Shown here: positions 2,499-62,391 of the stretch, piece by piece
Layout of the letters: the number at the start of each line of letters is the position of its first letter
Position numbering within the stretch: position 1 is the stretch's first letter
NCBI GenBank assembly: GCA_027603945.1
Contig: JADIIU010000032.1
Coordinates: 1-64,000, forward strand
Length of the DNA: 64,000 nt
From: Terramyces sp. JEL0728
Lineage: Eukaryota; Chytridiomycota; Chytridiomycetes; Rhizophydiales; Terramycetaceae
Reading direction: 5' to 3'
The notes under the pieces: generated by a model
What the model was told of the DNA's origin: nothing
Databases searched by the model: none
The model's input: the letters and a program-made list of their open reading frames with translations, nothing else
Translations under genes and position numbers: made by a program

Positions 2499-4845
2499 AT
2501 GAAGGAAGAAGCAGAGGTACAAGAAACTAATAGAGACGCAAGTGGACATTTACGATTCGATAAAACAGTTTTTCAGCGGAGATGAAGCCCGATATAACAG
2601 AATCTGCAGCTATCTTTCCGACAGATTGACTATCGAATACAACTACTCCAAGGAAATGGAAAAAATGTCAAAGAAATACATGACCAGCGTAATTATTACT
2701 TATGAAAGGATGTCGGATTTGAAAAGACTATCGACAAAGTGATTACAAAATTTGCCGAGTACGATTCTATCGTTGGTTCAGAGCATGACAAATTCCGCTC
2801 GTATTTAAACTTGTCGCTGGAAGAATTAACGATACTCAAAAAGAATCAGGATATTGTGCTCAAACAGATAAAGGAAAATATAAAGCCAGTAGCGCGCTAC
2901 CATTTGGAACTGGCATCCACTGGTATTCCAAAAGTATCTCATACTAACAATAGAGTAAATCAAATTACATCAAAAAAGTTGAGCAGGAAAAGGAAAATAT
3001 AGATACCAAGAATAGCTCAAAGGTGAGCAGATACTTAATATAGATTTACAAGCTGGGTAAAGATGTTGCAGCAGCAGGTAGACAATCGCTAACAAAAGAA
3101 CATGCATATCGCGTCGGAATAACCCACTTGGAAGAAGCACGATTGCAATTATACTCCACACGAGATAGTACCAGACATCAATATGAAGTATTGGAAAAGG
3201 AAAGAAACACTCTTCTCCAAAAAGTGATTAAACAATATTCTAGGATGCAGCAGCGAATGATTACAAGATTTGACGAGGAATACAAGTCTGTATACGAAAT
3301 ATCCCAAAATATTAATCCGTTTGACGATACAAACACTGCGGTTAAATCGTTCATGCAGACGTGGAAGATTGCAGACAAAGTGTATTTTGAACATTATAAA
3401 AACAAATTGCCCGCCAAAGATATGGTGTTTGGAGTACCACTTTCAATTGCGTCCAGAGGGAGTCCAGATTACCTGCCACGAATCCTGCCAAGATGCTTTG
3501 ATGCAATTGAAAAACGAGGTTTTAGTCGATTAATCCAGGTATCAATTCGGAAGGGATCTATCGTATTGCAGCTAGAGTGTCCGATGTCACAGATTTAAAG
3601 ATTGCGTGCGAAACAAACTTGGATGAAGTAAACTTTATGGATGATACAATCGATATTAACGCAGTTGCTGGAGTAGTTAAAATGTATATAAGAGAACTAC
3701 CAGACCCACTCCTACTGTTTCCAGTGAAAGAACGAATTGAATATTCAGTCAATGTTGCAGCGACACCTCCAACGCCAATTCCTGCCGAAGAAAGACTGGC
3801 AAAACTCAAATACAAAATAAAGTCAATGACCAAGGAAAAGGAGGCTGTCTTGAGAGCATTACTCCAGCATTTGAACAGGTGAATAGAATTAATGCAGGAT
3901 TATTGCAAATTCCAGCGTCAACAAGATGCCAACAGGGAATATTGCAATGATATTCAGTGCAGTGATTTTCCATAGCCAACAAGACATTCCACAGGAAAAG
4001 GAAAACAAGTCTTGGTTTGGAAAGCACAACGCTGACCACCAAGATATAGCTTTCGGAATGATCAAGGCCGATTCAGTACTATTTAGTTGATTTAGGTTAT
4101 TGAAGATTTATTGACCAACTATGATGAAGTATTTTCCATTCCGCTGGACAAGAAGGCATTCAGCAACCCTGATATAACTGTTAAAAAGAATTCAATGAGA
4201 ATCGTGTACGATTTACCGCCAGAGCTACCAAAACGGATATACGCGTCCAACGATGATTTGTCCAGATTTAAAGACGAGCCAGTGCTTTCGCCTGAAGAAT
4301 CGATTGACAACACCAAACAATCTAAAGATGACGTTGGTACAATTAGGAAACACTCGAGAGAGGAAATTACTTCAAAAGGGAACTTGTTTGAAGATGACGA
4401 CGAACTGCCTGAATTACCAGAAGAAAATGCACCTCCTCCAATAGAAAAAGATGCTGAACCAATATTCACACCTTCCAACTTGGATTTACCCTCTCCCGCC
4501 AAGGTTTTAGCCCCGCTTGATGCCTCGAGTCCAATTTCAATTCCAGATTTAAGTACTAATTATGTGGTGGGGAAATCTGGTTCCATTCATACAGCATTGC
4601 CGCAAATACCTAGAGTTTCAAGTTACAGGCTGAAATCAGAGCTTAATGATAGCAATCCTCTTCTATCTGATATTATGCAATCGATGGATCCACAAGATTT
4701 GGGCCATAAACCACCCAGCGCGCACCAATCTGTAGACTGTCTCGCCTTCAATGCCTCTGAATATCCTGATATCGACAAGCTCAACTTGGTATCAATAGAA
4801 TCAACCGACGAAGTGGACGATCCCAACATCATAAGATTAGAATAA
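2499..4845 (+). CDS. F-BAR and RhoGAP domain protein (Rgd1-like)
   Basis: Eight exons encode 735 residues. Introns at 2517-2535, 2689-2708, 2934-2953, 3023-3043, 3519-3538, 3879-3897 and 4076-4095 are 19-21 nt, and their removal leaves 2208 nt, exactly 736 codons. Residues ~5-245 form an F-BAR-like coiled coil (YDSIKQFFSGDEARYNRI onwards). The RhoGAP domain follows at ~280-490: FGVPLS, the arginine finger in SEGIYRIAA (restored only after splicing), NKMPTGNIAMIF, and VIEDLLTNYDEVF across the last splice. The C-terminal 240 residues are acidic, Pro/Ser-rich and likely disordered. F-BAR proteins bind curved membrane and the GAP domain switches off Rho-family GTPases, so a role in polarity, septation or wall integrity is inferred from Rgd1. 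ATG 2499 is the first in frame. Confidence 0.9.
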
Positions 4846-4915
4846 AATCGTTTTGTATAAAATTGAAAATAATATGTGTTTGATCTTTTATATCACATTA
4901 AAAAAGATTTCGTAA

Positions 4916-5568
4916 TTAAAATCCAGATGCAGCGAGGGTAGCGTTAACTGCCTTTAATTCTCCAGCAGCCTTCTTTTCAGCGGCAGCACGAGCACGTAAG
5001 AGAGCCTTCTTCTTTTCGTAGAATGCCTTGGATTTAACCTTTCTCTTTTCTTCAAGAGTGGCAACAACATCGTTGTATTTCCATCCAAATTCGGCGGATA
5101 AACGTTTCAAAGTGGTGTATTTACGTCCTGGAGCAAGACGGAGGACACGAAGCGCTTGTGGGATAACAAGACGCTTTTGTTTGTCGTATGGTGGTGGAAC
5201 ACCTTCGAATACCTTAAGACGTTCCAAAGCAGCAGCCCCACGAGCAGTCTTGTGTGGGATCATACCACGGATGCATCTGTAAAAGATACGGGAAGGAGCT
5301 CTAAAGTGGAATGCACCTCTCTTTGGGTTTACGATACAACGTTTGCGCATGAAAGCCATGAACTTGACTATTATTAACATTTAATTCTTACGTTTGTTAC
5401 GGAAAAATGGTCCTGACATGTTGATTTCTTCGCAACGAACTAAGGTGACTTTTTGTCCGTTCAATAATTGTTTTGCAACAGTTGCAGCAAGACGTCCCAT
5501 AAGGTGACCTTTGGCGTCGACGACAATTTCCTGATATTAATCCAATGCTGTACCTTTTCAAATGCCAT
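4916..5568 (-). CDS. RPL16: 60S ribosomal protein uL13 (RPL16/RPL13A)
   Basis: Three exons encode 201 residues, close to yeast RPL16 (about 199). Introns at 5531-5553 (23 nt) and 5368-5391 (24 nt) are the longest simple introns in the window. The first exon encodes only MAFEK. Family landmarks are [41 protein letters not shown] (rebuilt across intron 2), [22 protein letters not shown] and [13 protein letters not shown]. The C-terminus is Lys/Ala-rich as in eukaryotic uL13. It is a structural protein of the large cytosolic ribosomal subunit. Its stop lies 70 bp from the stop of the converging RhoGAP gene. Confidence 0.95.
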
Positions 5569-6905: not shown

Positions 6906-8343
6906 TTAATAAATTATTGTTCCGTTGCAGGTAAATTTCAATTTACCAGCGTATAATAGCCTGTCCCCCATGTCGTATAGATCCTTGACAAACCTATTTC
7001 GCACAGTCTCGTTAAACGTGATTCTATAGTCTCTGATAATATTAACGGCCCCATACTGATCCCAATCGTAAGATTGCTCTTCCTTCATTTCCTCGAACCA
7101 AACAGCCGCTTGAAGCTTGGGTAGTTTAACTTTTTGCTTGTCCAGGATAGAAGTCCAAAATATAGCCCTACAATTAACTAAAAGCACCTCCACCAACTTT
7201 CTTTAATCTGTGCTTCTTGGTCGACCAGCGGTGTCGATAAGTCATCCTTGATCAGCGGACGTGAATTTGGTGCATTGTACGCAAATGCTGACCCAGTTTC
7301 GGAAAGAATAAACGGTTTGCCTTTTTTCAAAACAAACCTGTCGTAGAAATTCAAGTATTCTTTATCTGACCTGAGAGTAGCTACAGCTTTTGGGTCATAG
7401 AAAACTAAATCTGGCACGACAGCGGTTTGATGGGTGGTGTGTGAATGACGGTAGTAATTGTAAATTGATATTCCTACCCAGTCAACCCATTCATCGCCAG
7501 GATAAAAGGGAAGGTACGGATCATCTAGTACCGTTATTCTCCCGTCATTGTTCGTATCCAGCATTTTAAACCCTTCCGAATCTTTTGGTGGGAACCCAGA
7601 GACGCCAAATGGATACCCAAACCCAGAGTTTGGACTCCATACCATTGCAGTCATATTGGTCTGTTCTCTAATCAATTTAGTCAAGGTGATCCAAGTCTTT
7701 TTCTGTTCTACAGGCTGGAACCCATACGGCATCCAATTACCTGAGTTAATGCGTATTACCATTCATTTCATGCATAAATCTTAATAGGACAGGCACGCCG
7801 TATTTGGAATTAACTTTACGCATGAAAATTGCAAATTGTTGGAGGATGTCTGTTCCAAGCTCGTCTGCTCTTATCGTTGGTTGAAGAGTGACTTCCAGCA
7901 TCCCGCCTTGTTCCTGCATTAACTGTGCCTGCCATTCAATAATATTTTCTTCGTAACCAGTATTGTTGATTTTCACAAAAGTGCTGAATTAGAAAGACTT
8001 ACTTCATTAGTGGGACTGCTGGTCCACCTAAGCGATCTCTGAGTGCTTGTGGATGGTCAATAGCCCAGTCCAAACTGAATCCAAAAATAAATTTATCTGG
8101 CGGTGGTTCCAATCTTGCCCTTGTTGTCTCATGGTAGCATATATGACTATCTTTTGAACCTACAGGCGGCATATATACAGAGTCTGATGGCCGAATTGCT
8201 AAATTTTAGTTGTATTTACGTGGAATGAATCTGATGTGAACCATGTATACTTGATATGCCATTGCGAATATACTAAGCATGAATGCAAAGGTTGCTTTGA
8301 AATAGAATACTACATTGCAGCATCGTCTGTACGCTTTTCCCAT
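6906..8343 (-). CDS. GH26 family glycoside hydrolase, type II membrane-anchored
   Basis: Five exons encode 452 residues. Introns lie at 8199-8219 (21), 7984-8002 (19), 7741-7759 (19) and 7168-7187 (20), and the exons sum to 453 codons. A short basic N-terminus is followed by a hydrophobic helix (FAFMLSIFAMAYQVYMV), so the enzyme is probably membrane-tethered. The GH26 acid/base region RFMHEMNGNWMPYG (~residue 180) is restored by splicing, and the nucleophile region is LSETGSAF (~328). MVWSPN and DWVGISIYNYY also fit. GH26 enzymes are mainly beta-mannanases or beta-1,3-xylanases; which one applies is unknown. An in-frame stop just upstream supports ATG 8343. Attack on algal or plant mannan would fit a parasitic or saprotrophic zoosporic fungus, but that is inference. 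Confidence 0.8.
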
Positions 8344-11224: not shown

Positions 11225-12135
11225 ATGAATCAACAAATGAATTTAACCGGCTACGGAGAACAGTACTCTGGTAATCTAGTAGCTAATCCATAGTGCGAGA
11301 CGATTTGCTCAAGACCGAAGAATTTAAACGAACTGGCACTCCAGGTTTAGACATGGAGTCGTATGGCGGTGAAGAAGAGGACGAAGATGATGAAAAGCCA
11401 ACTAAAAAAGCTGGCCGTAGAAAGATTAAAATTGAATACATTGAAGACAAATCTCGTCGTCACATTACTTTTTCTAAAAGAAAGGCTGGTATTATGAAGA
11501 AAGCCTATGAATTGTCTACTCTCACTGGAACTCAAGTGTTGTTATTAGTCGCATCCGAGACTGGTCATGTCTACACTTTTGCTACCCCAAAATTACAACC
11601 ATTGATTACCAAGCCAGAAGGAAAGAACATGATCCAAACTTGTTTGAATGCTACCGATGCGCAGGCTTCTACTACATTGCCAAACTCTATGCCAAATTAC
11701 GGCGCAACTTACCAACCTACTCCGATTCACTCCCCAGCACCTCGCCCGATGTCTGCAATGTCAATGCCTTACTCTGAAAATATGGGCTCGCCAAACCAAA
11801 GGCAAAATATGCCAGAACCTGAAGATTCCTTGTTGCTGCCAAGTTATAACCAAATGCCTACAAATAACAACTACCAAGGCAGCTACAACTCTGCAGGTTT
11901 GCCATTGTCCCCGCCAACCGGATATATGTACCCAACCAACAACAGCTACAATATCTCTCAAAACCCTCAGTATAACCATCTAGTTCAAAACAATGGCCGT
12001 CAATCACCACAGTTACCGCAAACTGGCATGCAGAACGATATTATGAGAACTGCTTCACCTGCTCAAATGATGATGCGTACATCCACTCCCTTGAACGATG
12101 ACATTTACGATTTGAAAGCGGAAAATAGACAGTAA
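11225..12135 (+). CDS. MCM1: MADS-box transcription factor (MCM1/SRF type)
   Basis: Two exons encode 295 residues; the 23-nt intron at 11271-11293 follows codon 15. The acidic stretch EEEDEDDEKPTKK leads into an SRF-type MADS box at ~54-112: GRRKIKIEYIEDKSRRHITF, then SKRKAGIMKKAYELSTLTGT and VLLLVASETGHVYTF, followed by the SAM extension PLITKPEGKNMIQTCL. The remaining 180 residues are Asn/Gln/Pro/Ser-rich and probably form a disordered activation region. Such factors bind CArG-like boxes as dimers and, in yeast, control mating, cell-cycle and metabolic genes with partner proteins. The acidic block before the MADS box is also typical of SRF and MCM1. Confidence 0.92.
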
Positions 12136-13331: not shown

Positions 13332-14239
13332 ATGGCAGAAAAGAAAAAATCAATACCAGCAGGAATATCTCTAGCAGCGGGGATTACAGCAGGAGCGGTA
13401 GAAGGAACAATCACATATCCAACTGAATATATCAAGACGCAATTGCAAATCCAAAAAGATGTAAATATTTCTAAATTTAGAATAAATTCCTTGGACCTAT
13501 AGATTGCCTAATTAAAACTGTAAGAGAAAAAGGAGTGCTAGGTTTATATCGTGGATTATCAGCGCTTGTTATAGGAAACGCAGCAAAAGCTGGGGTTCGA
13601 TTTCTTACTTTTGACCAAATTAAAGGTTTGTTTGCCGACAAAAATGGAAAGGTGTCTGCAGTAGGAATGGTATTATCAGGACTATCAGCTGGTGTTGCCG
13701 AAGCAGTTCTAGTAGTAACTCCTTCAGAAACAATCAAAACCAAATTAATCCACGACCAGAATAGTCCAAACCCTCGATTTAGAGGTTTAGTCCATGGCGT
13801 CAGGACTATAGTTGCAGAAGAAGGAATGGCTGGTGCTTATAAAGGAGTCTCGGCAGTAGTTGCTCGTCAGGGGGCAAATTCCGCTGTTAGAATGTCTTCA
13901 TATGGTCTAATCAAGGATAAATTGGCCACTCACTACCCAGTGGATTGCAAAGGCAAACCTATAGTGCCATGGTATACAACATTCTTTACGGGTGCAATTG
14001 CTGGTGTGATTACTGTATACACCACTATGCCATTTGATGTCGTCAAAACCAGACTACAGTCCTTGAATGCAAGCCAGTATAATTCCTTTGCTGATTGCTT
14101 TACCAAAGTATTAAGAAATGAAGGAGTGAGTGCACTATGGAAAGGGGCAACACCGCGATTAGGAAGACTAATATTCTCTGGCGGGATCGTATTTACAGTG
14201 TACGAAGGCTTTATCAAAGTATACGAAGGCTTCAGCTAA
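13332..14239 (+). CDS. CTP1: Mitochondrial citrate/tricarboxylate carrier
   Basis: Two exons encode 295 residues, with a 20-nt intron at 13461-13480. Three mitochondrial-carrier repeats are visible, with the motifs PTEYIKTQLQ, PSETIKTKLI and PFDVVKTRLQ, each starting a two-helix unit. The first and second motifs (PTEYIKTQLQ, PSETIKTKL) are characteristic of the citrate transporter subgroup. It exchanges citrate or isocitrate for malate across the inner membrane, supplying cytosolic acetyl-CoA. The length matches yeast Ctp1 (299). The stop codon overlaps an AATAAA-like signal. Confidence 0.9.
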
Positions 14240-15557: not shown

Positions 15558-16757
15558 ATGACTTTACACAACTCTAAAGCAGTTCAGATATCTGCTATTG
15601 GCCTTGTAATCCTTCTCTCAGCATTGCTATTCAAAAAGAAGCAGGTTTCGCCTCATGAAGAGTACTACTCTCCTGATTACCAGTCAGCAAGAGACAAGTT
15701 TAGAGCTGCTTCGAACGGAAAGGGGGAAACATACCAATTGCAAGTAACGGAAAAGCACACTACTGATGTTCTAGTTGTACCAGGATCAAAGTCCAAATTG
15801 CTGATTATTATTTCTGGGGTATCGTTAGACTAATTACAGACACACGGAGTTGAAGGATTTGCAGGCTCTGCAATCCAATTAGCTATACTGAAAAAGTTTC
15901 TTTTCAAAAGTGAACATCCAACCGTTGTATTTGTCCACGCCTTGAATCCGTTTGGAATGGCTGAATTGAGACGATGGAACGAAAACGGAGTAGATTTAAA
16001 CAGAAATTACTTGTCAAAGGATGAATTTGCCAAATTAAGAGCAAGCGATCCTAATGTCAATGGGTATGTTGACATGTACGATATTCTCAATCCTAAAACT
16101 GTACCTGGTAGGTGGACGGACCTTTTTTACATCAAATCTCTCTATTACATTCTCAAATTTGGTTATTTGGCTGCTAAAAGAGCAATTGTCTGTGGAAACT
16201 ACCATTTCGAAAATTCATTATTCTTTGGTGGATTTGAGCTGCAAAAAAGCCATCTTTTGCTTACAGAGTTCTTGAACAAGCATATTGACGTTGATGCGGT
16301 ACAGAAATTGGGAATGATCGATATTCATACTGGCTTGGGACCATCGGGACATGATACATTGATGATTGAACCACGAGGAACGGATATTATGAAATCAAAA
16401 TCAGTAGATAAAGAATTCTTGTCACATGCTGTTTCCGCTGGCGATGCCAATGATGATGCTTCTTCCGGATATGATGCAGTTAATGGTACAATCATTTCTG
16501 GAGTTCCAAAGCTATTCAAAAACGCCCAATATAATGCTCTTGTAACTCAAGAATTTGGAACTGTCTCGAATCTAACTGTTCTTAAAGCACTCCGTGCGGA
16601 AGCAGCTGCATACAGACTGTCAAAAGAAGACAGCAGAGGGCACGACAAGGTTGTGCGGGATGTATTCTATTCCAGGAACGATCCAAAGTGGAAAACTTCT
16701 GTCGTCGATAGAGGGATAAGGGTTTTTGAACAAGTATACAACAGTTTGAATGAATGA
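15558..16757 (+). CDS. DUF2817 family (M14-like) peptidase, membrane-anchored
   Basis: Two exons encode 392 residues, with a 21-nt intron at 15819-15839 inside the catalytic core. Residues ~9-25 form a signal anchor (ISAIGLVILLSALLF). The DUF2817 landmarks appear after splicing: ISGTHGVEGFAGSAIQ with the zinc-binding H..E, NPFGMAELRRWNENGVDLNRN, and IDIHTGLGPSG with the third zinc histidine. This group resembles zinc carboxypeptidases and is thought to be hydrolytic; the substrate is unknown. No C-terminal anchor is visible. Confidence 0.78.
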
Positions 16758-17937: not shown

Positions 17938-17958
17938 AATAAATAGAGTAGATATTTA

Positions 17959-18925
17959 TTACATAAATAGGTTTATGTTGTCGAACTGGTTTCTAGACAT
18001 TTGCCGTGATTGTAGAGGTACTCTTGGTTGCGGTCTTTGTATAATTCTCGATGAAGGACGATTGCTTTGTATTTGTGATATTCTTGATGGGGGTCGGTCT
18101 CTCGATTGCAGAGTCAGTCGGGATTGATAAGATCTAACAGGAGACGGCGCTGCTCGTGATGCTATTGATGGTCCATTATTCGACAGCCCTGATTTGGAGT
18201 TGTGCAAATATCGAGATTGGATCGACATTGCAGGCGATTGAGGTAAACCATAAGATTCTGTTGGCGAGTGCATTCTCAGCGATTGCTTCTCTTCAAAATC
18301 CGGTGAACGTTTTCTCTGTATTCTATCCGAAAGTAATGTTCTAGGTTGTTTTTGGTTATCACTAGATTAATTACTACTTACGTGCTAAACTGTCTGCTAA
18401 AGAAATGGCTTTTATTGCTAGTATGATTATTTGTAGCATTCTCATCATCACGATTTTTATCGATATTCCTTTGATATCCCCCCGATTGTATTCTTTCCAA
18501 TTGCTGCCTCAAATCTTGATTTTCCCTTTTCAATCTTTGATTCTCTTCATACGCTTGACTCAACAACAGTTTTGAATGAGTGTAATTTGATTCATTCTTT
18601 TTCGACAGCAAACAATAATTCAAACAAGAGTTTTTCAAATATGAAATCAAGTCGTTGCTCTGGCTCGTTTGGTAATTCAAAAGAGAATTCAAGTCTTGCA
18701 AGTGAGCATTTACAGGCGTCAACACTTGATTCAACCTGTTTGAATCGAAAGGAGCGAAACAGGATTGCGTATGGCACACTGGACATTCGTCAGATTTTTT
18801 GCAGTTTTTGCAAATACTGAATTAGAATTAGTTTACCAGTGAGAGCAGTCGCCTACAAACAAGGTGTTGTCAGATTGCTTGTAGTAGTAGCAGATATTAC
18901 AATGGAGCCATTCTGGAATTTGCAT
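17959..18925 (-). CDS. ZIP3/RNF212/HEI10-type RING protein (meiotic SUMO/ubiquitin E3-like)
   Basis: Three exons encode 308 residues; introns at 18817-18836 and 18362-18381 are both 20 nt. The N-terminus carries a compact RING: HCNICYYYKQSDNTLFVGDC, then SHCICKNC (restored by splicing) and CPVC. A coiled coil follows (SQAYEENQRLKRENQDLRQQ). The tail is Ser/Arg/Pro/Gln-rich. RING at the N-terminus, coiled coil, then a serine-rich tail is the layout of ZIP3, RNF212 and ZHP proteins, which mark crossover sites on meiotic chromosomes. The assignment rests on layout and cysteine spacing; another RING-coiled-coil protein is possible. Confidence 0.68.
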
Positions 18926-18990
18926 CTCTTGGAAACTTTTCTTGCATAATTTAAAGTTTAATTTTACCCATCAACTTAAAACGCGTCGAT

Positions 18991-19771
18991 ATGAAGACTT
19001 CAAGAGAATTGATTCTCTCTGGATCTACAAATAGAAAGCAGGCAACAACAGCTGAGCTGGGAGGGTTGAAGATTGATGGATTGAATGAATTTGAACACTT
19101 TCCGCATCTGCAGCACTTGTATCTCTACGAAAATAGTTTGAAATCAATGAACGGCTTGCAGCCTCTAATTCAGCTGAAAACGCTTTACTTGCAATCAAAC
19201 CAACTCCAAGGAATATCAGGAATTGAATCCCTTATAAATTTGACATTCTTAAACTTGCGAATGAATAATATTTCCAAACTACAAAACTTGCCTTTGAATC
19301 TGGAAGTACTACTCTTGGATAAACAGCAGTCACCAATAGAAATAATTGAGATTAATGAAAATCTAAAATCGCTTTCGTTGAACCAAAATGAAATTCTAAA
19401 CCTGGCTGAATTGGAGGGTAATTTGGAATCTCTGTTTATTTCCGACTGCGGTCTAAAAGACTCTACAGTACTTTTGCTTAACCAAGGTAATCACAAAAAT
19501 CAGCAAGAACTTGAAAGAAATAAACTACACAAACAATCCGCTCAAAGATAGGAGGCTAAGACAGCGACTGGCAGTATTAGGCTTGGAAATAATCAACGAC
19601 AAACCGGTTTGTGAAAAAGAACGCGACTTTGCTATTGGGATGTCTCGATTCAAGAAAATTGAAAAGATTGTGTTGAAGAGTGAAGCTGTGAAGCAGAATG
19701 TTATTCCGCATTTGCCGCCTTATGCTACACAGTACCGTGATTTGATTTTACAAAAGATGCACTCGAATTAG
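18991..19771 (+). CDS. SDS22-like leucine-rich repeat protein
   Basis: Two exons encode 253 residues; a 19-nt intron at 19468-19486 restores the last repeat (KNLKEINYTNNPLKD). About six short repeats of the form LxxLYLxxNxLxxxxGL are seen from residue ~35 to ~175, the 22-residue SDS22 type. The C-terminal cap reads RRLRQRLAVLGLEIIND, followed by a helical region. Such proteins are binding scaffolds, with SDS22 itself binding protein phosphatase 1. The partner here is unknown. Confidence 0.72.
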
Positions 19772-19945
19772 AGTGTTTAGCGAATACAATCTTGTTTCCA
19801 TTGTGTTTCTTTTGCATGTGAGCGGAGTTTTGCAAGTTTCTTCATATGGTGATTGATGCGGAGTTGCCAACTTATTTAGGGTGTCGACATCAATGGACAG
19901 CAAATAAAACACCGCTCCGATTGGTAAAAACATTAAATTATATAT

Positions 19946-20841
19946 TTACATTAGCCATGGATGAGTTTTCACCTGCGCAATAGTAAGGCGCCTTTTCGGG
20001 TCTAATTCAAGCATACTAGATAGCAGATCCATCAGCTCTTCTGATCGATTCACATCTGGTATTTGGTATTTTCCTTGAATGATATCCTCCATGCTTTTGA
20101 ACGGTATTGTGGAAAAAGAAAGGGTAAATAGTAGAATGCCAAGGCACCATACATCGACGCTGAATCCATCGTGTCTGTAATTTGGATCTTTAACTAACTC
20201 TGGAGGCGTATAATGTTTCGTACCTCTGAATCCAACAATTGTGCCCGTATCACTGCTTCCAAAATCAACCAGTTTCGCATTGAATTCAGAATCAATCACA
20301 ATCTGCCATTAATATAAACTTACATTTTCGTCCTTGATATCGCCATGTATGATTTCCTTTTCATGAAGATACGACACGCTATCAACAACTTGCTTGAAAA
20401 TATGTCTGACTCTGGTTTCAATAAAATTTGAATGTGAAATCAACTCGAATAAATCAAAGCTACTTCTCCTCTTATTTTCAGTTCCAACGAATTCCATCAC
20501 AAGGTAAAAGTAATTCAAATCTTCAAGAAATTCAATGAATTTTACTATTCCGGGATAGTCGAGCCGTTTGAGAATGAATACTTCCATTGGTACCGTGGTT
20601 CCTAAAGATCTGTCGTATTTCCAGCGATAAATTGTGCCAGAATTCTACGTTAGTGGTATAATACTTTTGGGATGATTTTTATCGCTGTAGCCAAATTATC
20701 GCTTAGTCTGTAGGATTTGTAGACAGTGCCAGAGATACCTTGGCCAAGTACTCTCTCCAAATTATATTTCTGTAGTAGTATATTCTGCGCAGTATCTGGG
20801 ATTTCAAACAGGTGTTGTTTCGGCATTCGAGCAGTTTTCAT
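19946..20841 (-). CDS. Ser/Thr protein kinase, PASK/PIM-like, with HGD in place of HRD
   Basis: Three exons encode 284 residues; introns at 20644-20663 (20) and 20303-20323 (21). The kinase core is nearly the whole protein: glycine loop LGQGISGTVYK, VAIK-type lysine in ATAIKIIPK, catalytic loop IIHGDIKDENIVID, DFGSS, and GTKHYTPPELV as the activation segment. The DIKDEN sequence and PPE motif resemble PASK and PIM kinases. The catalytic-loop arginine is glycine (HGD), so it is a non-RD kinase and probably does not need activation-loop phosphorylation. There is no PAS or other regulatory domain, so it is a minimal kinase. Confidence 0.82.
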
Positions 20842-24700: not shown

Positions 24701-24976
24701 CTAACACAGATGAAATCATCGCTAGGGAGAGAAATTTACAAGGAATTTCAAACTCTTTTGAAGAAATGTAAAGTAAAAAAAGAGCTAGAGTTGGTAGAAT
24801 TCGTTAAGCGTACCTGCAATTTGCTAACGGCCGTCCAGCAACCAATCCTTGCTGAAGATATCTCGAATCGAATCCAGCTGTTGGAAGAGTTTCAAAAGTT
24901 TGCTGGTGAGCACAAGAAATTGGTCAAGTTGGAATTGGTAACTTTTCGTGAAAGATATAGCCATAAATTAAAGTAA
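21748..24976 (+). CDS. RTEL1: RTEL1-type iron-sulfur DNA helicase with C-terminal harmonin-like domain
   Basis: Nine exons encode 1023 residues. Introns: 21841-21860, 22074-22092, 22353-22372, 22669-22688, 23123-23142, 23178-23197, 23442-23460 and 24691-24709, all 19-20 nt. This is an XPD-superfamily helicase: Walker A ESPTGTGKT (~39-46), motif Ia YASRTHSQLSQ, iron-sulfur cysteines near 134, 151, 160 and 191, DEAH box (~233), ASGTLSPL, and motif VI QAIGRVIRHRNDYG. A long linker (~716-872) carries eight short DPL/DPM-type repeats. The last exon encodes a helical domain like the harmonin-N domains of RTEL1. RTEL1 dismantles D-loops and G-quadruplexes in recombination and telomere upkeep. FANCJ and DDX11 are relatives, but the C-terminal domain favours RTEL1. 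Confidence 0.85.
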
Positions 24977-25022
24977 ATATGTATTTTTTACTAGTTTCCA
25001 AATTCTTTTAGTGGAATCACAA

Positions 25023-38688: not shown

Positions 38689-38704
38689 CGGATGGCACAA
38701 GCAA

Positions 38705-44856: not shown

Positions 44857-44857
44857 T

Positions 44858-47370: not shown

Positions 47371-47896
47371 ATGAGCGAATGGCAATCAATATGGGACAAG
47401 GAAGCGAAAGCATATTACTTTTGGAATCCTAAAACAAATGAAACAACGTGGGATAATCCGCTGAAAAAAGAAACCGACGCAAAGGAAGCAAAGGAGAGTG
47501 AGCCAGATCAAAAGGAGGAAAAGAAAACTGGCGATGATTATTATTCTTCAAAGGAATATTACGATTGGTATATGGAAAATATGGCGCAAATGCAATCAGC
47601 TCAAGCAACAGCCTCGTTTTCAAAGAAACAAACAAATTACGCTGAGCTTTCAATGAACCCAAGGTAAACTAATATTAACCAGATATGACACGACGAGTCA
47701 AGCGCAGCATTCGAATGCGATGAAGCAAATGAACTTTTATTTTGATGTAGAGAAATACCAGCGTGAAATGGCAATTGAACGAGCGAAACCCAAGGAAAAA
47801 GTTCACTATACAAAGAAGCAGATTGAAACATTCAAGAAAAAGAAAAAGGAGAAAAAGATACAGTCGTTGATACAGCGAATGGGACCGGATATCTAA
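47371..47896 (+). CDS. WW domain protein
   Basis: Two exons encode 168 residues, with a 19-nt intron at 47664-47682. The N-terminal WW domain is complete: WQSIWDKEAKAYYFWNPKTN and ETTWDNPL contain both signature tryptophans. An acidic-basic linker follows, then YYSSKEYYDWYMENM. The C-terminal end is strongly basic (FKKKKKEKKIQSLIQRMGPD). The layout resembles small splicing-associated WW proteins; the partner is unknown. Its stop runs into AATAAA. Confidence 0.8.
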
Positions 47897-48863: not shown

Positions 48864-49570
48864 TTACCACCACCAGAACCGGATGTAGAATACCAACGTA
48901 ACAACAGACAATACTATAATTGGCGGGCCATACTTTTGATACAATGCCTGCCAGTTCAAAGTCTTTGTGTCTTGCAAGTATTTCTTTGATTCAAACGACA
49001 AATTCTGAGAGTTTTGTTGCATGCCTACATTAATGAATATTACGCTCCAACGTCTCTCCTCTCCCCAACACTTCCTGGATATTCTTTGTCATTATCCTTG
49101 TAACGTCATTCAAATCTTCATTTAACTTGTTTAGATTCTGTTGCGAACGACTATCCTTGTACTGCTTCTTTGTTTTTTGAATAAAATTGTCTCGTTAGTT
49201 GATAGTTACCAAACTTTACGAATGCGTACGGCCGAGCAACTCGTTGCATTTCTTGTCCGTATAGCGACTGGAATTCCTTTTGCAGTTCTTCCAAGTATCC
49301 AAATGCAAGTTTCTTTGGGTATGATCGTTCGCATAAACACAAATAGCACACTCCGTATTCAATTAGATAGCTAGGAATTAATTGGTATTACTGGAATACG
49401 AGCTGGTTCGAATCGATTGAGCATCTCTGTTCTGAATTTGAAGAAAGTTTTTTAAACAGCTGTCTGGCTTGATTTTTGTATTCTGTTAAATCTAGGGTTT
49501 CTTCGTCGTCCATGCTCGCTGCTAATGGAAGTCCATCCGCTACTCTTGCAATAATTGTAGATTTAACCAT
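48864..49570 (-). CDS. SEC22: R-SNARE Sec22
   Basis: Four exons encode 215 residues, the usual Sec22 length; introns at 49371-49391 (21), 49191-49209 (19) and 49025-49043 (19). The longin domain starts [20 protein letters not shown] and runs through splice-restored [20 protein letters not shown] and [13 protein letters not shown]. The SNARE helix reads [20 protein letters not shown] with the zero-layer arginine in DVTRIM, then [13 protein letters not shown]. It ends in a membrane anchor ([20 protein letters not shown]). It works in ER-Golgi traffic. Its start is 38 bp from the divergent RING gene. Confidence 0.95.
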
Positions 49571-49608: not shown

Positions 49609-50486
49609 ATGGACTTGTTTGTTCCTGATAAATACAGCTTACCAACTGAAGATTTGTTTTCCTCGACGGATTTATTTGACGCTGTAGATCATGAAACTGT
49701 GGATTTCTCTATTGATTCCCCAAAAGATACGAGCGAAATCTACTCGCAGTATTTCACCAATTCAGCCCCTACAGTCGAAAATTATCATCAGAATGTTAAA
49801 TTGCAAGATCGGAATGAAACGGGTGAAATGGGGGTGAACAGTGAAATGAATCTTGTGTTCAAATTCAATGATAAATTCTTGGTATTTCCAAAGCATGAAA
49901 TAACAGAAATCAAAATCAAGGATTTGGATTTGAATTACTTTAATCTATATTTGGGTCAGACTGCAATTACATTTGAATTTGCTGATTTGCAAGACGCCAA
50001 GACGATCAAGCGGTTCTTCATAGATGACAACGTTACTCTAAAAGAGTTGCCAATTGGTATTTTGGTTTAATATAGACTCCAACGACAGTGGACCGAAAAA
50101 AGATACCAGTGTTGATGAAGCTACTCTTGCTTGTCCGGAAGCAGACACTGAATCCCTGCAAGAATTGGCAATTCAGATGGATGAGCTGGATACCGAATTG
50201 CAATCGATAATCAAAGACCAATTGACTGGGGAGATAATCGCACGGATAAATCAGGCGTATCGGGACAAACAAGAAGCAGTCAATCGAGCAAATGCAAGTT
50301 ACTTGGAAACAATAAAGTCTCTGCTTGCGAAAACGTGCTCACTGTGCTGCGATGAAAGCGCAACCAAAAGTAACTCTGATTAACCAAGGATTCATCCCGT
50401 GCAATCATGAAATCTGCTTAACGTGCAGCGATAAAATCGACTCTTTTTGCCCATGGTGCAGGACTGAAATAAAAAAAGTAATTTAA
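49609..50486 (+). CDS. C-terminal RING finger protein
   Basis: Three exons encode 279 residues; introns at 50057-50075 and 50370-50388, both 19 nt. The last exon completes a C3HC4 RING: CSLCCDES, then RFIPCNHEICLTC and CPWCRTEI. Upstream, residues ~75-150 look like a folded beta domain (NLVFKFNDKFLVFP, AITFEFADLQDAK). A helical segment follows (ELAIQMDELDTELQSIIKDQ). It is a likely E3 ubiquitin ligase with an unknown substrate. Confidence 0.8.
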
Positions 50487-52487: not shown

Positions 52488-53977
52488 TTAGACCAATAAT
52501 TTGATTTTATGAGGTGAAGATTTGGCATTCTTTTTACCCATAATCCGTTTGAAAAAATTGAGTTTCTTTTCGTCATCTTGTCCAGGAGTCACAATTACAG
52601 ATACTCGCTTTCCGTCAGAGACTATAACAGATAGATGGCTGTCTATCTTTTTCGGTTTAGCGGCTGGCACTGGCAGTGGTTTGTCGATAGCAAACTTGGA
52701 TTTGTTTGTAGTTTTCCCAACTGTGTTGCTCCTGCTGATAATTTGGTTCTTGTCCAGGGAATAAGTTACTTTTTGAGCAATAATCTCTGCAGATTCGTTA
52801 GGGTTTGCGTTTTTGGGGTGTCGCAAGTAATGAATAGATGTTTCCGATTTCTTTTGCGGAAGTGGTTGCGATTGCGTTTTGGTTGGAGCAGTGGTATTCT
52901 GGGGCTTCTTTACCTTTTGCTTCTGGGTTTCCTTACCCAATTGTGCAAAAGATTGCATGGCCTTCTTTGGCGGATATACAAGAACAGACTGATTATACAC
53001 GAATTCATTTGATAGCGCAGAGTTCAAGGATTTTTCCACAGATAAAACTACTATGGAGTCTGTATCTGAAAAAGACGGGTTAGAATCTTTCCTCTCCAAT
53101 CGCAGACGGTCAAATTCAGATAGAAATTCTGCTACCCAAGTCTGTCGGATTTCGCTTTGTTTGTATATATCTGGTATATCCAATTTCTGGAAGCTCGGCA
53201 GCCTTTGCAGTTGCTCGTCATATTCAGTATCATCCGAAGAGTAGTCAATTTCAGTTGGTGCTGACTCTTCAATTGCTGGTTCTGCTAGCTTTTGCGTGTC
53301 AAAGGAGAACTTGCGAGAAGTATTGGGAGAATTGCTTCCAAGTGTTTCTGCTTCTGAATCGTTCGTTAGAGATGGCTTTCGAGTTTGGTTGACATTTGGA
53401 ACTGGACGCGGCATGCCTTTGTGGCGAATAGTTGGATAAGTCTGCATTTGTTCCGGTCTGAAAGTTAAGGCATTGACTTGCATGTCAAGTATATCCAGTT
53501 TTCTCTGATTGAAAGCCGACAAATCGTTCATCGTTGGTATCTGAGTTTCCCGTTTTGTAATTTGCTTTGGCTGAAAGGTTGGCAATTCTTTAGCCTTGAG
53601 AAACTCATGTGACTTTGCACTCATCTTTGGATTTGAGTTCTTTTTCCGAATTCTGGCATTTTGCGGTTTTACAAGTAGATCGCGCTCTCTTCTACTATAC
53701 AAATTGGGGATTGACTTTGAAGATAAAGAAACTCGGTTTGCCCTTCTTTGTTGGGAATAATCGTGTGGGGCGACAATCCTCCTTGGTTCTGGCGGAACAG
53801 GAATTGATAGGTTATGGAACGACTTTTGCTTTGCTAGCGATACGGTTGAAAGTTCTGAATCAGATACTGTTATATGAGAATAGAGGGAACCGAATGATAC
53901 CTGTGATAGCACTGAATTAAACATCGAGTACCTTCATGAGGATAGAGGCCGTCGTCTGCGTTCTTTCGTCTGTACAT
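52488..53977 (-). CDS. Large disordered basic protein, unrecognised
   Basis: Two exons encode 489 residues; a 20-nt intron at 53912-53931 follows the 15-codon start MYRRKNADDGLYPHE. The protein is rich in Ser, Lys, Pro, Gln and Asn with low-complexity stretches. One possibly folded helical part is IYKQSEIRQTWVAEFLSEFD then RLRLERKD. The C-terminal end has a strand-like SHLSVIVSDGKRVSVIVTPG and a basic FFKRIMGKKNAKSSPHKIK, reminiscent of membrane- or septin-associated fungal proteins. No family was recognised. Confidence 0.75.
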
Positions 53978-54308: not shown

Positions 54309-54992
54309 TTAATCCCAATCGTCATCGCTTTCTTCCACCTTTGGTTCCTCGGCTTTAAAAAAGCGATCTTCATCGTCGTCATCCTTTTTGTCACCACTGA
54401 TTGCGCCGATACCCCGTAATACCATTTCAATATTCTCTGCATTCTTTCCCCCAAACATGTCCAATCCAACGATTTGTTTACGGAGATCTCCTTCGCCATA
54501 AATCAACAAAGTAGGAACATTCTTGTCCGGATAATTTGGAATGCACATATCAGCTACAATCTTTAAAAACTTGGTAGCTTTATATTTGGCGGCCAGTCTA
54601 TCCAATACCGCTCCCATAAATTTGGAATCTGGAACTGAATGTTGAAACAAGTGAACCTAAATCAATAACAATAGTACAACCACCCAGCTCTGTTTGGATG
54701 CTTCTGTTACTTCTACTGGATAATCAGTTTTTGATATCTGAGTCACTGTTCCGTATTTTTCCTTTGAAAGTTGGTCTTTAATTGCTTGTATTCTCATTCT
54801 GCGGTAGCTCTCCAGAACTCTGTCATCTTCTTCGTCCTCCAGTTCATCCAACTCATCCAAGTCTCTCTTTTCAAGCGGTTTAAAATTTCGTTCTTGTATT
54901 ACTTGGTCAACCAGTTCTTCCAGCTCTTCTTGCTTGATTTCTGGTATGATTCCTTTTTCCCTCAAGACATCGTTCCATTCTGTGTCCTCCAT
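54309..54992 (-). CDS. PLP2: Phosducin-like protein PLP2
   Basis: Two exons encode 220 residues, with a 21-nt intron at 54657-54677. The N-terminus MEDTEWNDVLREKGIIP is diagnostic. An acidic helical region (ELDELEDEEDDRVLESYRRM) follows, then a thioredoxin-like domain with VVVHLFQHSVPDSKFM (splice-restored) and VPTLLIYGEGDLRKQIVGLD. The tail is acidic and ends SDDDWD. PLP2 is a co-chaperone of the CCT chaperonin in actin and tubulin folding. Confidence 0.93.
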
Positions 54993-55115: not shown

Positions 55116-56776
55116 TTATACGAGCAACACAACTAACACGGATAGCAACATACCGGCGGAAGCAGCACTATTTGCAGTACCAGTTGGTGGAGAAGATAAA
55201 CCATTTGACGCTCCAGGGGCACTGGCTGAGCTGGATGCAGTACCGTTGCCGCTTGAAGATCCATTACCAGATGATGTATTGTTTGCACCACTCGCACCAA
55301 CTGCAATATTGCCCTTAAGACCGTTTGCAGAAGGGTTGGCTGGAGTGCCGATCCATTTATCCCATACAGCCAGGATACTGTTATGGGCAGCGACAACATC
55401 AGACGTGCTACTTGAATCAGGTAGTTTCAAGTCAGTGCAGTGATGTCCATTAGGGATTGAAATAAACTTGTTGTTGCCATTAGGAACTCCAGTCACGCCC
55501 AAATACCTCCATGGATCAATAGCGCCTACTGTTAATATACAAGCTACCTTGAACAAACAAGATATTGGTTGCTTGATTTACAATATCAAGCCCCTTGTAT
55601 TTGCTGTTTGTAGTGCCAACGTCTGCAGCCGGAATAGAAGGTCCAAAAGTGCCTTGACACTCTTGAGCACGTCTAGCCAGGGTAAAATACGAAGAAAAGG
55701 AGGTTTGTTGCTCAGCAGTAAAGAAAAATCCAAATTCAGTACATACTTGATATTGCCAAGAGTTGGCAGCATTTCCACTGGGAACTCCTCCAGTTGTTAC
55801 TGATTGAGTTTGCAGTGCCTTTACCAAGCTGTTATAGTCACCCAGCGCATCAGCATCGGACGCTTGCGGGTTGGTAAACGAAGGGAATAGTTGGCCTCCA
55901 CAAACAGCATCCAACAAAGTGGTAGTCTGCCCATTATAGGTGAAAGGACTAATACTTTTTTTGTATTGTACAGAAAAACTGAGTGATATTGAATACTGGG
56001 CTTTGGTCCTAGCTTCTCTAATATCAGAGTCTGGGGTCATAGAGGCAGCATCAGATAGTGCAACTGCTCTTCTCCAGCCGGTAGCGCAAGCATCCGAACC
56101 GCCCGACCTTGCAATGCCTTGGTCTACACCATATCCGTATTGCCAAAAGTCAGCCTGAGCTAAAACTGGGGCCGAAGATGAATGAGCTGCGAAAATTAAA
56201 TCAGGGTGCAGCATTCTTGCCCAAGCAGCCAGAGAACCTAAAGTTAAGTAAGCGAATACCTGCATAACTGCCTCCGGTAGCAATCCATTTGGTTCCTGCT
56301 GGAGCATTGTAACTACGAATGAAATTTGCAACATCTTCAATCGCTTGTTCTGAGCTTAGCCATTGATAATTTGACAGAGTAAACCCAGGATTATTGACTG
56401 GTGCTGAATTTCCATAGTATCTGTGTTCCAAAATAATGTGCTTGCCATTGTAACGTTGCGCAAGGTTGGTTTCCAATTGGATTGGCAAGTAGGTAGTATC
56501 TATTGCTGCTTCACCTCCAATTTGCAAAAAGATTGGTCCGCCTTTTTGATAGTAGTCGTCATTGACAAAATAGTTTTGCATCCAAGTAGTCGTGTCTGAA
56601 GGGTTGAAATGATCCCGAAGTTGGGTAAATTGTGAGCTACTATGTGCTTTGCTGACAACTTTAGAGATTTTAGAGCCCTTCATAGTATTGCGGAAGTGCA
56701 ATTGTCGAACTTGGGCTGGAGTGAGTTCGTCTAATCCCGCAGCGTATGCAACTGCAGCTAGAATGTAAATATGCAT
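55116..56776 (-). CDS. S28 serine peptidase, paralogue 1 (GPI-type tail)
   Basis: Three exons encode 539 residues; introns at 56238-56259 (22) and 55529-55547 (19). A signal peptide (MHIYILAAVAYAAG) precedes the S28 fold: LRDHFNPSDTTTWMQNYF, GGPIFLQIGGE, LEHRYYG, nucleophile Ser in GGSYAGSLAAWAR (splice-restored), HSSSAPVLAQADFWQY, then VGAIDPWRYLG with the Asp and NGHHCTDL with the His. The C-terminus is Gly/Ser/Ala-rich with a hydrophobic end, fitting a GPI anchor. S28 enzymes cut after proline (Pro-X carboxypeptidase or dipeptidyl peptidase type). Confidence 0.92.
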
Positions 56777-60172: not shown

Positions 60173-60496
60173 CTCTTTTCTTTCCTCTTTGTGGTGTTTT
60201 ATACCACGCTACACCAAAGTAATATGACTCACACAAATCACACTGCAAAGAACCAAATTCATGAATTGAAGCAAGAGTCATTTATATTAAGAAAGCCAGT
60301 TTCGGCAATAAAGTAGATCCGTAAATTGCGTTTAATTTTTTGATAAATTACAGGCAGGGACAAGATACCCACAGACAAGCATTCGAATAGCTTAAATCAA
60401 TAGACTGATCTATAGTTATTCAATTTTTTATCCCTTTGAGATTCCTCGGCTCGTTCTCTTTGATCCAAGCTTTTTCCAAAAACAGTGCAGAATTGA
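60173..60496. other. Intergenic region between divergent genes
   Basis: A 324-bp shared 5' flank of the SDR-like and second S28 genes. No other feature was recognised. Confidence 0.5.
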
Positions 60497-62391
60497 ATGC
60501 TTATTGTATTCACCTTACTATGCTGGTGCTATGGGCATGTTCCATACCAAGCAAGCAGAAATCACAACTTTAGAATAAAGAACACTGCGACTCCAATTGC
60601 CAACATCCAGTATCAGTTCTTCAAACAACAAAGAGACCATTTCAACCCCAGCGATTCAAACACTTGGCAACAGGCGTACTATGAATACAACACTTATTAC
60701 CAGAATGGCGGACCAGTGTTTTTATCAATCTCTGGAGAATCGCAAATGAATTCGTCATACATTGGTTATGGACTTGAAGCAATTCTAGCCAAAAAGTACA
60801 ATGGATTGGTAATCAACTTGGAGCATCGATATTACGATATCATGAATCAATTCCCTCAGGATTACCCTGCAGACTTTGCTTGGTTAACCACTTCACAAGC
60901 ACTTCAAGATATTGCAAGTTTTATCAAATTCAGACAGACATCGCTACCAGCAGACACAATATGGGTTGCAATGGGGGGATCATATCCTGGAAATCTTGCT
61001 GCTTGGGCTAGATTGAAATTTCCAGACTTGATTTACGCAGCCCATTCTTCAAGTGCTCCTGTACTATCTACTACAGACTTTTACCAATACGGTGTCGCAG
61101 TAGAAGCAGGTATACAATACTCTGGTGGATCCCCCACATGTGCAACTAACTGGCAAAGAGCAGTAAAGTTGTACGATAAATACATGGTCCAGCAAAGCTA
61201 TTCTGACGACCAGAAATTCAAGTATTCGTCATATTCTACGCTACTTTCTTCTGCAGTGCAATATGGAAGAGATATTACCAGTCCTCCAAAAATGGGAATG
61301 ATCTGTGGTGGTCTGATGTTTCCTGCGTTCGTCGATTCTGCAGCTTCCGATGATACATTGCTGGCTGAATATAAAAAGGTGATTTCAAACTTTAGCGCAG
61401 ATGCTTCTTCTTCTCCTATAGCTAAGCTAATTGATGCTTCTTCAACTGGCGATGCCCAAAGAAACAATATTGCCTGGATCTTCCAAAGTTGCTATGAATT
61501 TGGCTATTTGCAGGATTATACGAGCCAAGAAAGTACTGCATATTCACAGTTCCGCACTATTGATGGATTCCTCAACAATGTATGCCAGAGCATATTTGGA
61601 GTTAAGCCATCATCTGACTTGGTTAATAATGCATATATGGGGTTGAATATCACCAGTGCGATCACTAGGGTTGTGTATGTCCATGGTACTGTAGATCCAG
61701 TAAGAAAATGCTAATTTTAGTGGCATACTATTGGTATCAGTGATGTTGGATCCACTGACAACGTGTTTATAAAAAACGAAATGGGACATCACTGGTAGTT
61801 GATTATTAATTTAGTGACGACATGTCTGGCAGCTTTGGAGTATCCCCAACCATTCTGACTCAAATCTTGACGGCATGGGATGTGTATCTTGGAAATAACC
61901 CAAAAAATACCTTTACTGGCACAAATACTAACTATAATGTAAACTTTGTTGGTCTTCCTCCAATCCCGAGCGGCAGTCGTATTGGTGGTGGATATGCAAT
62001 TGATACAAAGAAACTGGGGTCTTTAATCGCTTTGGTGGTTATTATTGCAGCTGCCGTTGCTGGATTCACTTGCTATCGAAGAAGGAAAAGAAACCAGATT
62101 GGTTCAAAGCTTGCACTTGCCCAGGGACATGTTGTTGCACCTCCAGCCCAGGCTTACTATCAACCACCTCAATATGCGAACCAGCCAGTGTATCCACAGC
62201 AATACCCTTCAAACCAACCAGCGCCATACGTTAATTCTCAATCGTCCGTCCCTTCTTTTCCACAATCTTCAACAGGGTATCCTGGCCAAGCGTATCAGCC
62301 AAATGCACAAACAGGCTATCCTGCTCAACCATATCAACAGCCTGCGACCAACTACCTTAGTCCTACGTATCCACAGGTTTATCCTCAATAG
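60497..62391 (+). CDS. S28 serine peptidase, paralogue 2 (transmembrane, PY-motif tail)
   Basis: Three exons encode 617 residues; introns at 61700-61720 (21) and 61795-61814 (20). A signal peptide (MLIVFTLLCWCYG) leads into QRDHFNPSDSNTWQQAYY, GGPVFLSISGES, LEHRYYD, the nucleophile in GGSYPGNLAAWAR, splice-restored VDPWHTIGI with the Asp and GHHCDDM with the His. Unlike paralogue 1 it continues into a true membrane helix (LGSLIALVVIIAAAVAGFTC) with a stop-transfer CYRRRKRNQ, then a ~100-residue Pro/Tyr/Gln-rich cytosolic tail. The tail includes a PPQY motif (PPxY), a ligand type for WW-domain ubiquitin ligases, hinting at endocytic control. Confidence 0.92.

Follow-up and report, generated by a model that had tools for sequence, protein, structure and literature searches.

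Are the segments of about 20 nt that interrupt conserved genes of Terramyces sp. JEL0728 genuine spliceosomal introns, and how widely does this intron type extend through the genome? The question comes from positions 1 to 64,000 of contig JADIIU010000032.1 (the window, that is, the whole stretch of 64,000 nucleotides that was analysed), in which a preliminary description had placed 59 introns in 26 genes, 58 of them 19–24 nt long (18, 27, 8, 2, 2 and 1 at the successive lengths). Our curated set bears this observation out with 54 introns in 23 window genes, of which 53 are 19–24 nt long (19 nt, 15; 20 nt, 25; 21 nt, 8; 22 nt, 2; 23 nt, 2; 24 nt, 1) and one is 41 nt. The two sets could not be matched intron by intron because the earlier one came without coordinates, while their length counts agree closely. 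The host is a fungus as described (Chytridiomycota, Rhizophydiales, Terramycetaceae). In our view it is about 95% probable that these segments represent spliceosomal introns of the U2 type in Terramyces sp. JEL0728, reduced nearly to the smallest size at which recognition is possible.

In the window, gene models were checked for open reading frames with and without splicing, by Pfam on the spliced proteins and by alignment to relatives. All genes are open when spliced (23 of 23) and none when unspliced (0 of 23), partly by construction because the models were built to be open; RTEL1 with its 8 introns is open to 24976. Pfam recognized RhoGAP, GH26, MADS, mitochondrial carrier, DUF2817, kinase, APH, M14, phosducin, S28 (55116-56776), Longin and Synaptobrevin (both in SEC22), STIMATE, ERG4/ERG24 and AAA in the spliced proteins, and the uL13 protein matches solved ribosomes along most of its length. 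Six curated genes stood outside the Pfam test (the genes at 28100-28774, 49609-50383 and 52488-53977, and three that we take to be RING-like, leucine-rich-repeat-like and WW-domain-like), the S28 gene at 60497-62391 was compared with its paralogue at 55116-56776 only, and the ERG4/ERG24 gene has an undefined 5' end because its model was truncated at a frame boundary. The motif restorations reported earlier are upheld: those of the FIGNL1 Walker A and of the RhoGAP arginine-finger region (presumably correctly so labelled) hold against relatives, the SEC22 joins lie inside or at the edge of the Longin and Synaptobrevin matches, and for PLP2 (phosducin-like) and GH26 HEMNG the joins are covered by the Pfam match that the spliced protein gives. 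Conserved motifs guided a correction of the FIGNL1 and SEC22 models by eye.

The exon joins of three genes were compared with public proteins: for RTEL1, P0001 (Boothiomyces sp. JEL0866, partial), P0002 (Terramyces sp. JEL0728), P0003 (B. macroporosus) and P0006 (Globomyces); for RhoGAP, P0121 (Terramyces sp. JEL0728), P0122 (Boothiomyces) and P0123 (Boothiomyces macroporosus); for FIGNL1, P0124 (Terramyces sp. JEL0728), P0125 (B. macroporosus), P0126 (JEL0866), P0136 (Globomyces) and P0132 (Cladochytrium). After Terramyces itself, the closest relatives in these match lists are two Boothiomyces, which we take to belong to the same family, Terramycetaceae. In RTEL1, 7 of 8 joins are ungapped on both sides against P0001, and the first, which falls at the edge of that alignment, is ungapped against P0006; in the latter, gaps occur near two joins and the eighth is not covered. 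In FIGNL1 all four joins, including those of the Walker A and GC-AG introns, are ungapped against P0125, P0136 and P0132, and in RhoGAP 6 of 7 are ungapped against P0122. Both introns of the M14 gene at 42338-43674 lie in ungapped alignment to its neighbour at 40950-42215, which itself has no predicted introns.

Chance was excluded in three ways: by control pairs in a parser, by the length peak of a trained parse and by a ruler that uses no gene models. These surveys covered the window plus 20 stretches taken from 16 further contigs (21 sequences, 259,466 bp), that is 1.7% of the assembly (15,016,339 bases in 231 contigs), the stretches being picked partly near kinase hits. A gene parser that allowed GT-AG gaps of 10–200 nt with no favoured length found, at its loosest setting (penalty 4), 93 gaps of 19–24 nt, against 17, 14, 14, 16 and 3 with the control pairs GA-TG, TG-GA, CT-AC, GT-AC and CT-AG. 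The peak at 19–21 nt is exclusive to GT-AG and absent in all five controls, while gaps of 61–200 nt show no excess (187 against 183–224). This comparison is also the fair test of the intron ends, since the termini of the curated introns (53 GT-AG and 1 GC-AG of 54) are imposed by the parser. GC-AG as a class was not enriched over GA or GG controls (1, 1 and 1 of 19–24 nt). Without start and stop, a codon-only parse gave a weak peak (7 of 15 gaps at 19–24 nt), and a motif-distance test with strict donors had too few matches.

When splice-site weights were learned from predicted introns of all lengths, the parse with a 200-nt limit (24 sequences and 268,870 bases, because three loci from the small nuclear RNA (snRNA) search had been added) returned 60, 109, 42, 23, 7 and 2 predictions at 19 to 24 nt, together 243 of 489, with 0–3 at each length from 25 to 31 nt. 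The remainder comprised 7 at 14–18, 43 at 25–60 and 196 at 61–200 nt, and we read the last group as mostly bridges between neighbouring genes and leave it out of the real introns. With gaps of 14–70 nt, 304 of 368 predictions in the 259 kb are 19–24 nt long, and under alternative settings the figures were 350 of 396 and 330 of 442. A narrow class below about 30 nt thus dominates both the curated and the predicted introns. The counts include some false introns, because the parser erred in FIGNL1, in SEC22 and at the end of RTEL1. Predicted introns occur in 83 of 118 better-scoring predicted genes, some of which are cut by stretch ends, and 304–350 introns would extrapolate to roughly 17,600–20,300 in the assembly if the sample is fair and with some predictions false. 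For the "genome-wide" claim of the preliminary description, the basis is this sampled 1.7%. The 304 introns have 30% G+C and phases of 138/94/72. In-frame stops were found in 55 of 57 predicted 21-nt introns, against 42 of 72 at 19 nt and 81 of 135 at 20 nt, an outcome that the finder favours. A search for in-frame 21-nt introns hidden in coding sequence gave 14 sense against 5 antisense with a looser score and 8 against 10 with the strict ruler, and allows no firm claim.

For the ruler, 514 branch-plus-acceptor sites were taken on both strands and the positions of GTA upstream were tallied. Counted from the GTA donor, 110 branch A residues fall on position 14, 66 on position 15 and 22 on position 16, with 2 each at positions 13 and 17; over spacings 22–59 the background is 7.0 per spacing, which matches the 7.1 predicted by GTA frequency alone. 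In 20 first-order Markov resamplings, whose site numbers were not matched to the real sequence, the maximum at any spacing of 8–23 was 9. Six other trinucleotides were also put to this test. GTT (20, 14 and 5 at 14–16, background 8.3, with a further 22 at spacing 8) and GTG (10, 15 and 6, background 4.8) rise slightly, as expected of weaker donors, and no rise at 14–16 was seen for TGA, GAT, CTA and GCA. Assembly or sequencing indels in ordinary genes would not keep the spacing between GTA and a branch motif constant; draft assemblies generally carry indels and the public gene models here disagree among themselves, but the control dinucleotides lack a length peak and the joins match relatives residue by residue, so that we give this origin next to no probability.

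Alternatively, the genome may also contain a sizeable number of longer, ordinary fungal introns that our methods missed, the short introns then being one class among others. The parses were limited to 200, 70, 45 or 30 nt, and some longer predictions are possibly real, for instance one of 25 nt in a gene of stretch L040 (presumably eS10-like) and one of 43 nt in a gene of stretch L005 (presumably stress-protein-like). However, the ruler has no peak over spacings 22–59, although it sees only the strict branch pattern at spacings below 60, and only one of the 54 curated introns exceeds 24 nt. Such a missed population is improbable in our view.

The anatomy of the short introns follows from the same distances. 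A good branch motif (score of at least 6) is present in 299 of 304 predicted introns, compared with 4977 of 20000 random 20-mers scored in the same way, and 5–6 of 6 pairs with the U2 sequence GUAGUA are formed in 190 of 299 introns against 1444 of 4977 equally scored random 20-mers. The branch A is at position 14 (135), 15 (114) or 16 (32), the spacer between donor hexamer and branch heptamer spans 2–4 nt in 281 of 299, and the donor consensus is GTAATT (+3 A 89%, +4 A 54%, +5 T 51%, +6 T 60%). From the 3' end, the branch A lies at -6 (143) or -7 (124), a placement which, like part of the U2 pairing, is built in because the branch was chosen by YTRAY score with weights trained on our own predictions; the ruler spacing of 14–16 is free of this circularity. 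With the branch A at position 14–16 relative to the donor and, in most introns, at -6 or -7 relative to the 3' end, a length of 19–22 nt follows.

Several observations weigh against spliceosomal introns, the circular branch training among them. Excision from RNA is what we infer from the sequence evidence. P0003 is gapped at two RTEL1 joins and does not reach two others, P0126 is gapped at 2 of 4 FIGNL1 joins, and at RhoGAP 3519-3538 residues are missing from P0122 and inserted in P0123. The models deposited for the window's own contig (P0002, P0121 and P0124) share 6 of 7 RhoGAP, 1 of 8 RTEL1 and 0 of 4 FIGNL1 introns, only 7 of 19 in total, and P0124 is gapped at 3 of 4 joins and different at the fourth. 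To these are added the parser errors in three genes, a donor +5 with 51% T and 17% G, unlike usual U1-matched donors, and the failure to find U1 and U6 in the assembly.

With regard to the deposited models, we would ascribe the disagreements to annotation errors; since 7 of the 19 proposed introns are present there, the short introns are partly visible in the deposited annotation but handled inconsistently. In P0124, the Walker A GTGKT is missing, and by our own reading, taking out 11 nt, GTATTATTAAG, yields the additional residues that it has near NRPHEID. This model apparently uses an 11-nt GT-AG intron in place of the 20-nt GC-AG intron 25901-25920. The insert in P0123 consists of seven residues, GLDRINQ, exactly at the Terramyces intron 3519-3538. 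By our own back-translation of the Boothiomyces protein, it would be consistent with retention of a 21-nt intron built like those of Terramyces, with a GT start, ATT AAT near the end and a final AG.

As for the splicing apparatus, the assembly contains one match to U2 snRNA (140.2 bits) with the GUAGUA branch-pairing site, four stretches matching U2AF1 and two matching SLU7 (139.2 and 104.2 bits). The best U2AF2 stretch scored 251.7 bits, under the cut-off of 310.3 bits, and has four internal stops; minus four introns of 19–20 nt it yields a 440-residue protein with RRMs. Another possibility is that the segments are kept in mRNA and bypassed in translation, or removed from DNA in another life stage, yet the GT-AG ends and the U2-complementary branch at fixed spacing are spliceosomal signatures, and U2, U2AF and SLU7 genes are present, the predicted models of U2AF and SLU7 being themselves interrupted by such introns. 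We regard bypassing or DNA removal as very improbable. The assignment to the spliceosome, which the preliminary description had also made and which the sequence evidence bears out, is based on these genes, the GT-AG ends, the branch and the restoration of frames and motifs.

Rfam gave no U1 match in the assembly and only two sub-threshold matches for U6, which we read as coding DNA. In pattern searches of the assembly for U6 and U1, the 12-mer ATACTTACCTGG was not found and ATA[AGT]TTACCTGG was found 25 times. The U1 pattern matched 25 places, against 7 for the reversed pattern. At position 4 the canonical C is absent from all of them, a scan of 12 revealed no U1, and many are probably reversed donors. 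U6 patterns gave no U6; the gene may lie outside the assembled sequence, have diverged or carry an interruption of its own. RED_N had no match in the assembly, but the control gave none either, so that absence is not implied. A spliceosome adapted to extreme geometry, as proposed in the preliminary description, goes beyond these data: the recovered parts look ordinary, U1 and U6 were not found, and a modified spliceosome in Terramyces may only be surmised.

A minimal intron would consist of a 6-nt donor (GTAATT), usually a 2–4 nt spacer, a YTRAY branch region, usually 3–4 further bases and the AG. Base pairing of the donor, first with U1 and then with U6, would come to lie almost back to back with that of U2 and the branch site, and the AG that closely follows the branch would act as acceptor. 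With mostly 4–5 nt from branch A to terminal G, there would be no space for a polypyrimidine tract, and U2AF2 may serve protein contacts instead of tract binding. Human B complexes hold the U6/donor helix 15 nm away from the U2/branch helix and require about 52 nt (PMC6692369; here and below, published systems are described from the accessible parts of the cited sources). A distance of 14 nt cannot span such a separation, and both helices could not be extended on it as in humans; assembly is therefore probably sequential or proceeds through a more compact arrangement.

Table 1. Curated introns of the window, with exon joins as compared with public proteins, paralogues and Pfam matches
Length (nt)	Gene	Position	Strand	Remark
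19	RhoGAP, gene 2499-4845	2517..2535	+	join ungapped against Boothiomyces P0122, P0123; same join in public P0121
20	RhoGAP	2689..2708	+	ungapped against P0121, P0122, P0123
20	RhoGAP	2934..2953	+	ungapped against P0121, P0122, P0123
21	RhoGAP	3023..3043	+	ungapped against P0121, P0122, P0123
20	RhoGAP, beside arginine-finger region	3519..3538	+	same join in P0121; gap in P0122; 7-residue insert in P0123
19	RhoGAP	3879..3897	+	ungapped against P0122; only one of 7 absent from P0121
20	RhoGAP	4076..4095	+	ungapped against P0121, P0122
23	ribosomal protein uL13	5531..5553	-	curated; gene by match to solved ribosomes
24	ribosomal protein uL13	5368..5391	-	curated; gene by match to solved ribosomes
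21	GH26, gene 6906-8343	8199..8219	-	outside Pfam match
19	GH26	7984..8002	-	outside Pfam match
19	GH26, within HEMNG codons	7741..7759	-	inside Pfam match; join at residue 181 (own arithmetic)
20	GH26	7168..7187	-	outside Pfam match
23	SRF-type MADS-box gene	11271..11293	+	gene named by Pfam; join outside match
20	mitochondrial carrier	13461..13480	+	gene named by Pfam
21	DUF2817 gene	15819..15839	+	inside Pfam match
20	RING-like gene (assumed name)	18817..18836	-	curated
20	RING-like gene (assumed name)	18362..18381	-	curated
19	leucine-rich-repeat-like gene (assumed name)	19468..19486	+	curated
20	protein kinase	20645..20664	-	inside Pfam match
21	protein kinase	20303..20323	-	inside Pfam match
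20	RTEL1, gene 21748-24976	21841..21860	+	ungapped against Globomyces P0006; very edge of Boothiomyces P0001
19	RTEL1	22074..22092	+	ungapped against P0001, P0006
20	RTEL1	22353..22372	+	ungapped against P0001, P0003, P0006
20	RTEL1	22669..22688	+	ungapped against P0001; gap in P0003, near it in P0006; only one of 8 shared with P0002
20	RTEL1	23123..23142	+	ungapped against P0001, P0003, P0006
20	RTEL1	23178..23197	+	ungapped against P0001, P0003, P0006
19	RTEL1	23442..23460	+	ungapped against P0001, P0003; one-residue gap nearby in P0006
19	RTEL1	24691..24709	+	ungapped against P0001; gap in P0003; P0002 protein fits read-through
41	FIGNL1, gene 25516-27136	26390..26430	-	also 21 (26410-26430) + 20 (26390-26409); ungapped against P0125, P0136, P0132; gapped in P0124, P0126
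20	FIGNL1	26317..26336	-	ungapped against P0125, P0136, P0132; gapped in P0124, P0126
19	FIGNL1, within Walker A codons	26231..26249	-	ungapped against P0125, P0126, P0136, P0132; gapped in P0124
20	FIGNL1 (GC-AG)	25901..25920	-	ungapped against P0125, P0126, P0136, P0132; three-residue insert in P0124; kept in the set on homology
19	STIMATE-family gene 27187-27975	27568..27586	+	inside Pfam match
20	STIMATE-family gene	27783..27802	+	inside Pfam match
19	gene 28100-28774 (no family)	28442..28460	-	curated
20	gene 28100-28774 (no family)	28276..28295	-	curated
20	ERG4/ERG24 sterol reductase	29325..29344	-	inside Pfam match
20	ERG4/ERG24 sterol reductase	29035..29054	-	inside Pfam match
20	phosphotransferase-family gene (Pfam APH)	32108..32127	+	inside Pfam match
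20	phosphotransferase-family gene (Pfam APH)	32345..32364	+	curated
20	M14 carboxypeptidase 42338-43674	43239..43258	+	absent at aligned place in neighbour 40950-42215
21	M14 carboxypeptidase 42338-43674	43367..43387	+	absent in neighbour 40950-42215
19	WW-domain-like gene 47371-47896 (assumed name)	47664..47682	+	curated
21	SEC22, gene 48864-49570	49371..49391	-	inside Longin match
19	SEC22	49191..49209	-	placed by eye; edge of Longin match
19	SEC22	49025..49043	-	inside Synaptobrevin match
19	gene 49609-50383 (no family)	50057..50075	+	curated
20	gene 52488-53977 (no family), short first exon	53912..53931	-	curated
21	phosducin-like gene	54657..54677	-	inside Pfam match
22	S28 peptidase 55116-56776	56238..56259	-	ungapped against paralogue 60497-62391
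22	S28 peptidase 55116-56776	55526..55547	-	ungapped against paralogue 60497-62391
21	S28 peptidase 60497-62391	61700..61720	+	ungapped against paralogue 55116-56776
20	S28 peptidase 60497-62391	61795..61814	+	two-residue gap a few residues downstream in paralogue alignment

Two pairs of introns abut as AG|GT with no exon between them, at 26390-26430 (-) in FIGNL1 (21 + 20 nt) and at L005:6426-6464 (+) (20 + 19 nt), and each pair may represent either two genuine tandem introns or one intron of about 40 nt. Some candidates were rejected. A ninth RTEL1 intron at 24973-24994 was dropped because an in-frame TAA (24974-24976), at which RTEL1 stops, begins at its second base and the sequence beyond resembles neighbouring genes that we assume to be ankyrin-like; 44113-44131 was rejected with the frame open without it, and 26431-26449 encodes the conserved SWDDIA. 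Also dropped were 10118-10137 and 27638-27656, the parser's SEC22 intron 49138-49162, and unsupported predictions of 16 nt and 25–30 nt. The presumed ankyrin-like genes are three similar long genes in a row at 34476-40537 (-), about 600 residues each, and the stretch just past RTEL1, 24995-25343 (+), resembles the start of one of them. The stretches L022 (contig 199) and L023 (contig 111) are near-duplicates, as are contig 18 near 53–61 kb and near 115–123 kb; these may be two haplotypes that were assembled separately, or the products of recent duplication.

Ultra-short introns that work like these are already known in ciliates, a nucleomorph, mikrocytids and Trichomonas, so that Bigelowiella and Stentor, the precedents named in the preliminary description, are apt but incomplete. 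The introns of Stentor coeruleus are likewise near-uniform, ultra-short, GU-AG and A+U rich, and the branch A of its 15-nt introns would by our arithmetic also lie at -6. However, they are 15–16 nt long with branch A at position 10–11, occur in 18% of genes in this ciliate, and SLU7 and PRPF18 are given as N/A in its factor table (PMC9505925), whereas Terramyces has 19–24 nt, branch A mostly at 14–16, introns in most of the better-scoring predicted genes, and SLU7. The Terramyces introns are thus not of the heterotrich type, from which they differ in length, branch position and SLU7. Mikrocytid introns (16–17 nt) share the tight size limit and conserved sequence, but Mikrocytos mackini lives as a parasite inside cells, its spliceosome is strongly reduced and it has 224 introns in 179 genes (PMC10245619), far from the number extrapolated for Terramyces, where U2AF1, U2AF2 and SLU7 are present. 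Paramecium and Nyctotherus introns are around 25 nt, with a Paramecium mode of 25 nt and in-frame stops enriched in 3n introns (PMC5014332); Paramecium resembles Terramyces in shortness and in the stops of 21-nt introns, the result that our finder favours, but its introns are longer and it is a ciliate. Type B introns of Trichomonas, about 25 nt and at shortest 23, are also ultra-short with a conserved branch site, but T. vaginalis has only 24 of them in an intron-poor genome (PMC12316389, in which 18-nt introns of Bigelowiella natans are mentioned as well). The nucleomorph of Bigelowiella natans is the relic nucleus of an alga, and its introns (18–21 nt) are the closest in length; unlike these, the Terramyces introns are in an autonomous fungal nucleus. 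Searches of an open-access library, which lacks most subscription papers, listed no report of ultra-short introns in a fungus; fungal surveys may mention them in supplements. What is new here is the fungal (chytrid) lineage and the 14–16 nt donor-to-branch ruler alongside standard 3'-splice-site factors.

Gene models are damaged by these introns, as the FIGNL1 model without Walker A, the seven additional RhoGAP residues in Boothiomyces and the few agreeing joins illustrate, and surveys of gene content in such chytrids would therefore be distorted. The problem of a short donor-branch distance is shared with human short-intron splicing by Smu1/RED, where about 50 nt are needed from donor to branch in extract (PMC6692369); the apparent 13–15 nt in a chytrid sets a concrete geometric limit against that figure. 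Terramyces also makes it testable whether U2AF and SLU7 are needed without a tract and with almost no gap between branch and acceptor. More tentatively, and with odds that we put somewhat below even, a single intron design may hold throughout Terramycetaceae, with the 14–16 nt ruler, U1 and perhaps U6 changed for GTAATT, and U2AF and SLU7 kept despite the lack of a tract and the minimal branch-to-acceptor distance. If so, branching in this family would take place on two nearly touching helices, without the reduction known in parasites and ciliates.

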